The position numbers were made by a program, and so were the translations under genes. A stretch of DNA of 64,000 nucleotides, from contig NZ_CP007058.1 of NCBI RefSeq assembly GCF_000517625.1, forward strand, positions 1-64,000, written 5' to 3'. The first letter of the stretch is position 1. Every line of letters begins with the position of its first letter. A model generated the notes under the pieces. The model was not told the origin of the DNA. It saw only the letters and a program-made list of their open reading frames with translations, and did no database searches. Positions 46,337 to 49,131 of the stretch are shown here, piece by piece. The DNA is from Halostagnicola larsenii XH-48. GTDB lineage: Archaea; Halobacteriota; Halobacteria; Halobacteriales; Natrialbaceae.

Positions 46337-48109
46337 ATGTCTGACCTGATTGGTGACCGAATAAGCAGGCGAACGGCGCTGGTGGCGGGTGGTGGCGTTA
46401 TCGCCGGCACGATTGGTGGGAGTGCATTACACCGGATAACCACAGACAATACCACCAATCAGGTTTCGGTAACGATCCTCTCGCTTCCGGCGGACAACGA
46501 TCAGCGGAGCAGTGAGATCGCTCGGGAGTTCGAGAAGAACCTCCGGGCGGTCGGGATCAACGCCAGTATCGAACCCCGTTCCGAAGCCGAGTTACTGCGC
46601 GCGATTTTGCTCGAGCACGACTTCGATTGTTACGTCACCCGCCGTCGCAGTGACCACGATCCGGACTTCCTCTATGAGATGTTTCATTCGTCGTACGATC
46701 CCGAGGCGGGCTGGCAAAATCCGTTCGGATTCACCAACCCCCAGGTGGACGAACTACTCGAACAACAGCGTTCGATGGACGGCGACGAGCGGACGGAGAC
46801 TGTCAACGAACTACTAAACAAGTTAGCGCAGACACACCCGATCGTTCCGATCTGTGTCTCCGCTGAACGCCGAGTCGTCAGAACGGATCGATTCGACGGG
46901 TGGGATGATCACTCCCTCGAAAGTCGGCTCGGATACCTCGGCCTCGAGCCAAACGCTTACGAGTGGTCAGATGGAGAGGACGTGGTGCTAACGGCCATCC
47001 TCACCGATACTCGGGCAACCAAGAATCTTAATCCGCTGACGGCAACCCATCACGATAAGGGGACGTTCGTTGATCTCCTCTATGATTCTCTCGCAGTCGA
47101 GGACGATGGAGAAATTCGGCCGTGGCTCGCCGAATCGTGGGAGTGGGACGGCGCTGTCGCCACCGTTTACCTCCGAACGGGGTGTCAGTTTCACGACGAC
47201 CATCCGGTCACTGCCCGGGACGTCGAGTTCACCTACGAGTTCCTCGCGGACACCTCTCTCGGGGAGCAAGACGCGCACTCACCGACGCCGAGATATCGCG
47301 GCCTCGTAGACGCCGTCGAGCGAGTCTCCGCCGTCGACGACCACACGGTTCAGATCCGTATCGATGCGCACGCCGACATCGGTGAACGTGCGTTCACGAT
47401 CCCAATCCTCCCGAGACACGTCTGGGAACCCGAGGTCAGTAACCGACTCGAGAACGGACAGGAACCGACGCAAGGGACCTGGGAGATCGTGACGGCCGAT
47501 TCGATTCCGAAAATCGGGAGCGGTCCATACGCCTTCGTCAATCAAGAGCCGCGCTCGTCGCTCCAATTCGAGCGCTTCGATCAGCACTTCACGCGCCGTG
47601 AGAGCGTCGACCTCCCGGAACCGACTCCCGACGAACTCGTGTTTCTAGTCGGACTCAACAGTGGACTGGTAATGAGCGAACTTCAGGACGGGAACGCGGA
47701 TATGACGGCGTCACGGATGGCAGTAGGAGAGATCGGCGATACCAGTGATCGCTCTCTCGAACTCATCGAACCAGCGACGCCACGGTTCTACCACGTCGGG
47801 TTCAACGTCAGGAACGCACCGTTCAGTAGTCCGAACTTCCGCGAAGTCATCGCGAGCCTGATCGACCGGGAGTCTCTCGTTTCGGAAATTTTCAACGGAC
47901 AAGCCACCCCGACCGTCACCCCGGTAACTGACGAGTGGACGCCGGAGGACCTCGAGTGGGACGGAGAGGCACCGTACGCACCCTTTTTCCGTAAGAGTGA
48001 TGAAACAGGGGACGAAGATTCAGGTAATCTCGACGTGGAACAGGTAAAACGCGCCTTCGAACGGTATGGCTTTCAGTACAGCGACGACGGCGAGCGTCTG
48101 GTGAGATAG
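46337..48109 (+). CDS. oligopeptide-type (SBP family 5) binding protein, apparently circularly permuted
   Basis: A 590-residue protein with a twin-arginine-like signal (SRRTALVAGGGVIAGTIGGS, no lipobox Cys). Residues 42-205 (SEIAREFEKNLRAVGINASI, HDFDCYVTRRRSDHDPDFLY, FTNPQVDELLEQQRSMDGDE, HPIVPICVSAERRVVRTDRF) correspond to the C-terminal lobe segment of DppA/OppA-type proteins. Residues 215-590 (TDTRATKNLNPLTATHHDKG, LAESWEWDGAVATVYLRTGC, IGSGPYAFVN, FREVIASLIDRESLVSEIFN) match the N-terminal and middle parts, and the protein stops where the C-terminal lobe would begin. No permease or ATPase genes follow; a PAP2 phosphatase does, 2 bases later. Confidence 0.85.
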   Translation: MSDLIGDRISRRTALVAGGGVIAGTIGGSALHRITTDNTTNQVSVTILSLPADNDQRSSEIAREFEKNLRAVGINASIEPRSEAELLRAILLEHDFDCYVTRRRSDHDPDFLYEMFHSSYDPEAGWQNPFGFTNPQVDELLEQQRSMDGDERTETVNELLNKLAQTHPIVPICVSAERRVVRTDRFDGWDDHSLESRLGYLGLEPNAYEWSDGEDVVLTAILTDTRATKNLNPLTATHHDKGTFVDLLYDSLAVEDDGEIRPWLAESWEWDGAVATVYLRTGCQFHDDHPVTARDVEFTYEFLADTSLGEQDAHSPTPRYRGLVDAVERVSAVDDHTVQIRIDAHADIGERAFTIPILPRHVWEPEVSNRLENGQEPTQGTWEIVTADSIPKIGSGPYAFVNQEPRSSLQFERFDQHFTRRESVDLPEPTPDELVFLVGLNSGLVMSELQDGNADMTASRMAVGEIGDTSDRSLELIEPATPRFYHVGFNVRNAPFSSPNFREVIASLIDRESLVSEIFNGQATPTVTPVTDEWTPEDLEWDGEAPYAPFFRKSDETGDEDSGNLDVEQVKRAFERYGFQYSDDGERLVR

Positions 48110-48111
48110 CT

Positions 48112-49131
48112 GTGCTCGTCGAACTGTTAACACAGTTAGTGGTCGTCGTAGCGCTTTTACTCGCTATTTTCATTCCTCTCTGTATCGGTTGGGGCCGAAT
48201 CAAGCGGACTCGACAGGAGTGGCAGAGCCGACTGCGTCAGTCGACTCCCGTCGCTGCCATAGTGGTCGTCGTGTTACTCATAAATCGGTTCGCTCGTCCG
48301 CGACTTCCAGATCTGTCCTGGGCAATCGACTGGAATCTAACGCCGGTATTCTATGCCATCGAAGGTGAGGCGGTCGTCTGGTTCCAAGCGTTCGCTAGCC
48401 CAGCGCTTACGCAGTACTTCTCGTTCATTTATATCTACGGGTACGCTTTCATGCTGATTTTCCCAGTGATCGCGTATTTCGCGCTGTCGGACACATACCC
48501 GCTCAGGAAACTGTTGTCAGCGTACGCACTGAACTACGTTATCGGACTCGTCATCTACTTGCTCGTGGTCGCGTACGGGCCTCGAAACCTAATGCCGGAG
48601 ATGATCGAAACCGCGCTGTACGACTTCAATCCGCAATACCAGTCGCTCACCAGCGAAGTAAACCACAACACTAACGTCTTCCCGTCGTTGCACACGTCTC
48701 TTTCCGCGACTATCGCGCTGTTTGCGTACCGAACCAGGCGGTCGTACCCGATCTGGTTCGTCGTCTCAGTCCCACTGGCGGTGAGCGTCGCCATTTCGAC
48801 GATGTATCTCGGCATCCACTGGGCGATCGATGTCGCCGGGGGGATCGTGTTGGCACTCGTCACTGTGAAAGCGTCCGACCAACTCGTTGGCCGGTGGTCT
48901 CTCTCAGAAGACTTCGGAATCGATCTCGAGGCGTACGAGAGCCGACTCAAAAGAACCCTCGGCAGAGATGACCAACTCGACACGAACGACCGTATGTCGG
49001 AATCCGTATCGGAGGCCGATGCGCAAACAGATTCGAGACCCGACACGTCTGGGGTCGATCGACCCGCAGAATTGGAGCGGACGACTCAATCCGGTGCTGG
49101 CAACGAAAACGGCGAGAACGACAAAATCTAA
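48112..49131 (+). CDS. PAP2-family membrane phosphatase
   Basis: A 339-residue protein with six or more helices and the lipid-phosphatase motifs: PSLHTS at residues 191-196 and YLGIHWAIDVAGG with His236 and Asp240; the first motif (normally KxxxxxxRP) is represented by VAYGPRNL only, so it is of the divergent inositol-phosphoceramide-synthase/AglR-like kind. It may remove phosphate from a lipid carrier or transfer a head group. The C-terminal 75 residues are acidic and disordered. GTG start 2 bases after the binding-protein gene, so the two are one operon. Confidence 0.85.
   Translation: MLVELLTQLVVVVALLLAIFIPLCIGWGRIKRTRQEWQSRLRQSTPVAAIVVVVLLINRFARPRLPDLSWAIDWNLTPVFYAIEGEAVVWFQAFASPALTQYFSFIYIYGYAFMLIFPVIAYFALSDTYPLRKLLSAYALNYVIGLVIYLLVVAYGPRNLMPEMIETALYDFNPQYQSLTSEVNHNTNVFPSLHTSLSATIALFAYRTRRSYPIWFVVSVPLAVSVAISTMYLGIHWAIDVAGGIVLALVTVKASDQLVGRWSLSEDFGIDLEAYESRLKRTLGRDDQLDTNDRMSESVSEADAQTDSRPDTSGVDRPAELERTTQSGAGNENGENDKI

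Follow-up and report, generated by a model that had tools for sequence, protein, structure and literature searches.

A circularly permuted cluster C solute-binding protein encoded beside a PAP2_3 phosphatase gene in haloarchaea

The window (the whole stretch of 64,000 nucleotides of Halostagnicola larsenii XH-48 DNA that was analysed) contains a gene, P0001, for a family-5 solute-binding protein (SBP) whose two pieces stand in the reverse of the usual order, and the next gene downstream encodes a PAP2_3 membrane phosphatase (Table 1). In our overall reading, which we consider likely, P0001 is a circularly permuted SBP of cluster C (OppA/DppA type), the outcome of a permutation that has recurred at the same loop, and forms a two-gene unit with the phosphatase. 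A wider reading, in which permutation at this fixed loop is recurrent and possibly reversible, including a swap within an otherwise conserved operon, and in which one lineage has departed from ABC transport and serves throughout the haloarchaea as the extracellular ligand-capturing subunit of PAP2 enzymes, has in our judgement an even chance of being right. The permutation had been proposed in an earlier sequence-only reading of this DNA and has stood; what that reading missed is how common the permuted form is, that it occurs in bacteria, that it has at least two origins and that it is linked here to a PAP2 gene instead of ABC transporter genes.

In normal family-5 proteins the N-lobe and middle domain come first and the C-lobe piece is C-terminal, an arrangement that is reversed in P0001. 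The Pfam profile PF00496 (SBP_bac_5; 368 positions) scores 162.9 bits against P0001, for a gathering cut-off of 32.4, which assigns the protein to SBP_bac_5 by homology, and profile positions 1-285 fall on residues 259-586; a whole-genome profile scan repeats the two-part match. The sequence-only reading had placed the C-lobe segment at residues 42-205 and the remainder at residues 215-590. Aligned separately, as it had suggested, the second part matches profile positions 1-285 (E 5.9e-41) and the first matches positions 291-363 (E 2.8e-5), so that both belong to SBP_bac_5 in swapped order and the first segment does not align to a family other than that of the C-lobe; its 23.9 bits are a modest score that falls below the whole-protein cut-off. 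Because of this modest score, separate HMMs for the N-piece and the C-piece, trained on normally ordered proteins only, were used as an independent test. The C HMM matched P0001 from about residue 42 (i-E 3.5e-17) and the N HMM from about residue 217 (i-E 1.9e-49); neither HMM matched any of the 242 shuffled or reversed controls. Both cluster C pieces, the N-lobe with the middle domain and the C-lobe, are thus present in P0001, with the C-piece ahead of the N-piece, and the canonical order of N-lobe, middle domain and C-lobe is absent. Among the 121 permuted proteins examined, the C-piece was detected by this HMM in every one and lies ahead of the N-piece by envelope midpoint in 118, the other three having over-long C envelopes that also begin ahead of the N-piece. 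No Pfam family other than SBP_bac_5 matched P0001 at E<=1.

The order proposed earlier was therefore borne out by Pfam and by the canonical-only HMMs, with the junction corrected to about residues 213-217. A chance match of the N-terminal piece is ruled out by the canonical-only HMM and the shuffled and reversed controls, and a frameshift or assembly error by the occurrence of this order in over 100 genomes; the HMM test, together with mostly collinear full-length homologues in many genomes, indicates that the order is not an accident of any of these kinds. In view of its swapped order, P0001 is classed as a permuted variant of SBP_bac_5/cluster C and not as a canonical member.

Table 1. Coordinates of the features discussed (window positions, except where a locus handle is given).
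Feature	Coordinates	Strand	Basis or remark
P0001, circularly permuted family-5 solute-binding protein, 590 aa	46337..48109	+	ATG start; Pfam, HMMs, collinear homologues
Tat-type export signal (SRRTALVAGGGVIAGTIGGSA), residues 1-41	46337..46459	+	sequence; low pLDDT at residues 1-39
C-lobe piece, residues 42-213	46460..46975	+	PF00496 291-363; canonical-only C HMM
Linker region, old C-terminus to old N-terminus, ~residues 193-217	46913..46987	+	
N-lobe and middle domain, residues 214-590	46976..48106	+	PF00496 positions 1-285; canonical-only N HMM
PAP2_3 integral membrane phosphatase	48112..49131	+	PF14378 E 1.1e-17; GTG start, 2 bp past P0001 stop
G141, permuted	L182:7568-9556		
G158, canonical	L203:7114-9108		
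Aryl-sulfate sulfotransferase genes	L196:964-2316; L194:3161-4585		two different families

The Pfam break falls at PF00496 position 284-288 in P0001, in L004 and L006 (two further permuted proteins of the same genome) and in the bacterial proteins, and the new termini lie in the third domain, within the loop that connects the 'AxxLLxxAGY' helix to the next strand. The N-lobe/middle piece of P0001 ends in the helix and loop that precede the strand now opening the C-piece. In the L007 family, a separate group of proteins discussed below, the break can be located at single-residue resolution, the canonical '...ERAEELLEEVVDDLGLDTPIEIQLEVNADNDD...' being cut ahead of the strand 'IEIQLEV', and the linker joins the C-terminal end of the canonical protein ('..DEQVxWLDR') to the sequence that opens its mature form ('DLQEGGTLR'). 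Breakage of this helix-to-strand loop is common to both separate permuted groups.

An AlphaFold2 model of P0001 (a single model, run without templates on an alignment of 22 sequences) forms one confident chain with a pLDDT of 81.7 and a pTM of 0.81, low pLDDT being confined to the signal and three short loops. Such a pTM would not be expected for two unrelated, freely moving domains, and the two independent domains that the sequence-only reading had named as the outcome against it did not appear. Foldseek matched the model to the family-5 structures TM1226, NikZ, DppA, AppA and OppA, the first four being the best matches (E about 1e-13 to 4e-15). The accompanying TM of ~0.4 comes from a sequential method that does not score a permuted superposition, and is the value expected if an in-order alignment reaches one piece only. 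The model suggests that P0001 would fold as one complete two-lobed trap; a model of the second permuted family (pLDDT 47.5, 13 similar sequences) was too poor and points neither way.

The signal peptide had been correctly placed directly ahead of the C-lobe segment, to which we can add that it carries a Tat-type RR motif without a lipobox Cys. By the haloarchaeal Tat lipoprotein criterion, which asks for both, P0001 lacks the Cys. This residue is found in 49 of 51 PAP2-type proteins and is missing from just two, P0001 and its nearest orthologue, G035 (L019), so the protein may be released or, alternatively, retained by an uncleaved signal.

The permuted form is common and old, bacteria included. 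The genome of the window encodes 13 family-5 proteins, five of which are permuted (P0001, L009, L004, L006 and L007). Within the same family-level group, proteins like P0001, mostly collinear over their full length, are encoded by 97 of 101 genomes (E<=1e-10), and at the class level by 113 of 195 (E<=1e-60). The search of other haloarchaea for the swapped order that had been recommended was successful: by a two-state classification, a haloarchaeal set of 163 proteins, a sample biased by the use of permuted queries, comprised 116 permuted, 47 canonical and no ambiguous members. In total 121 of 168 proteins were permuted, including four bacterial proteins and one plasmid-borne haloarchaeal protein. 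The bacterial occurrence is drawn from plasmid sequences only, in which tblastn located permuted forms of the Alphaproteobacteria Maritalea, Nitratireductor, Ketogulonicigenium and Microvirga, with the order confirmed by HMM; those of Neorhizobium and Roseomonas were judged permuted by nearly full-length collinear matches. Three bacterial loci with readable annotation are ABC-importer operons. None of the PDB chains or NCBIfam models matches in the permuted order, the best stretches lying within a single piece, and annotation pipelines, whose models cover one piece, label the permuted proteins as ordinary ABC binding proteins.

The phosphatase gene beside P0001 has the motifs GPRN, NVFPSLHTS and STMYLGIHW..DV. 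The PAP2 proteins paired with these SBPs keep GPRN, NVFPSLHTS and HW..DV, which cover the catalytic His/His/Asp positions of the family, and FPSLH and HW..DV are conserved in nine aligned members. RefSeq annotates a 'phosphatase PAP2 family protein' beside the SBP in Haladaptatus, Haloferax and Natronorubrum, and the genome of the window has five PAP2_3 matches, two of which adjoin permuted SBPs. The PAP2-linked SBPs form one clade (31 rows, 100/100) within the permuted clade. Linkage to permease and ATPase genes, the mark of an ABC importer, is absent from the gene in the window and from its clade and present in permuted relatives outside that clade. Since the PAP2-linked clade is nested in the permuted clade, the simplest account would be the recruitment of an already permuted ABC binding protein to a phosphatase, with the root of the tree being uncertain.

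We consider it quite likely, judging from the gene neighbourhood, that P0001 is coupled to the PAP2 protein in some way. The alternative is that P0001 is an ordinary ABC binding protein using permeases encoded elsewhere, with a PAP2 neighbour unrelated in function, which would agree with the complete dppBC/ATPase operons that encode the other permuted types of the same clade and with the presence of several such operons in the genome of the window. We regard this as unlikely, because in 47 of 50 window-type loci tblastn places the PAP2 gene immediately downstream of its SBP partner, and the pair is kept in about ten family-level groups with varied outer flanks; its stop and start codons often overlap or adjoin (by 4 bp in Haloferax gibbonsii and 1 bp in Natronorubrum bangense), it has been duplicated as a unit (L060 and L197), and a permease gene stands directly beside window-type SBP genes only once, upstream in L065. 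The three exceptions are L059, where a second SBP has its PAP2 gene upstream, and L062 and L169, which are without PAP2. Two window-type SBPs without an adjacent PAP2 gene, G206 and G210 (L062:8111-10252 and L205:4082-5833), are natural tests of partner loss versus a partner encoded elsewhere. Conversely, PAP2_3 proteins of similar size occur without an adjacent family-5 SBP and with differing neighbours (L199:5144-5995, in the window's own genome (C2); L200:5075-5923; L201:5284-6144; L202:5574-6374). In Haloferax gibbonsii and Haladaptatus caseinilyticus the SBP-PAP2 pair also has a gene for an aryl-sulfate sulfotransferase a short way upstream.

If P0001 is coupled to the phosphatase, as we favour, we propose that it may be a ligand-capturing or regulatory subunit of the enzyme. 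The RR motif would direct P0001 through the Tat machinery, and the binding protein would be held at the outer face of the membrane, with a lipid as the anchor in most relatives, P0001 excepted. An extracellular ligand would then be captured by closure of the lobes and either delivered to the PAP2 protein, or the closed form would regulate the enzyme; transfer of a phosphorylated solute would fit as well as control of the enzyme through ligand sensing. The permutation would have placed the anchored end on the third domain in place of the first, which may alter how the trap faces its partner. The link to PAP2 genes, conserved in nearly all sampled members of the family-level group, suggests that a Venus-flytrap protein has a so far undescribed use other than in ABC transport.

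In a tree of 88 proteins, all rearranged into canonical order, 59 permuted proteins from haloarchaea and Alphaproteobacteria form one clade (support 98/88), indicating that the clade of P0001 is common to both groups. The L007 family and L064 fall outside it, among canonical proteins (100/98 and 100/100), and within the L007 family, which includes the canonical L005 and about 14 canonical orthologues, permuted and canonical proteins are intermixed. One ancient permutation, with the mixed orders of the L007 family due to tree error or gene conversion, might be suspected from the breakage of the same loop in all permuted proteins and from the similar linkers of the L007 family, and the C-piece of that family taken alone is compatible with a single permuted clade (AU test p 0.079, not rejected). 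We nevertheless find this very unlikely: the L007 family falls within the canonical proteins, well away from the main permuted clade, a single permuted clade inside the family is rejected both with the whole protein (p 0.0005) and with the N-piece (p 0.001) by AU tests that were set up after the pattern had been seen, and a permuted and a canonical copy stand at the same place of one operon in two haloarchaea. These copies, G141 and G158, are 82% identical in the signal peptide and 72.7% identical in each of the N- and C-pieces, with the order swapped, and are sisters in both the N tree (100/99) and the C tree (97/91); their operon neighbours are a phosphoribosyltransferase (90% identical), DppB (86%), DppC (90%), DppD (86%) and DppF (71%). 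A permutation event has thus taken place at this locus, whether the canonical order of G158 is the original one or was regained. Permutation is accordingly seen at no fewer than two separate positions in the tree, the second having arisen or been reversed in a separate haloarchaeal family. A DppB tree aimed at dating the switch was consistent and weakly resolved. No left-over duplicate pieces or double-C intermediates were found beside permuted genes in the L007 family, and the PAP2-type loci have only whole tandem copies, some seen partly at the ends of stretches.

That P0001 is instead a chimera, with an N-terminal piece shuffled in from a different family-5 protein, is scarcely credible: the identity of its pieces to canonical proteins is only about 20-29%, which makes their origin hard to read, but N-piece and C-piece trees agree on the PAP2-type (100 and 99), other permuted and L007-family (99 and 99) groups, the C-piece tree splitting the 59-row permuted clade once, and G141 and G158 have equal identity for both pieces.

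The permuted L064 protein (L064:1323-2984), encoded in an ABC operon, is the sister of the entire L007 family and possibly represents a third independent permutation. The ABC operon of the L007 family adjoins a phosphoribosyltransferase gene in three genomes (L049:4553-5119, L182:6693-7259 and L203:9331-9897; family PF00156 confirmed for L182), a neighbour which hints that the operon may serve purine or nucleoside uptake. As a rule, natural circular permutations are ancient events that took place once and were deduced from structures. In this case the two orders are present at one locus, with pieces 73% and signals 82% identical, which provides near-identical proteins on which to test the event and how it affects folding, anchoring and docking.

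No literature on permuted family-5 SBPs was found in a search that had preprints and most subscription journals outside its scope, nor any on a PAP2_3 member, haloarchaeal ones included, paired with an SBP, and the earlier reading's remark that it knew of no description of such a family was borne out in that search. The nearest precedent, and the one case in the papers searched, is TpMglB-2 (Tp0684) of Treponema pallidum and its relatives, a natural circular permutation of an SBP termed 'Type Ic / Cluster Bc', which belongs to another SBP class (PMC4990184). Its authors raise membrane tethering as a possible reason for the permutation and allow that the permuted part derived from another gene (PMC4990184). 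Like P0001, TpMglB-2 is a two-lobed SBP that keeps its bilobed fold after permutation, but it is a type I/cluster B sugar binder that is permuted within the N lobe (PMC4990184); P0001 matched only SBP_bac_5, and the PDB matches listed are family-5 proteins. Canonical family-5/cluster C SBPs (PF00496; OppA, DppA, NikA, AppA and TM1226) are homologous to P0001 over both pieces and share its predicted fold and an export signal, and its permuted relatives resemble them in being encoded in dppBC operons. P0001 differs from them in the swapped order of its pieces, and its clade in the PAP2_3 gene that replaces the ABC permeases, a gene that belongs with the Aur1-type PAP2 phosphatases (PF14378) and keeps PSLH and H...D.
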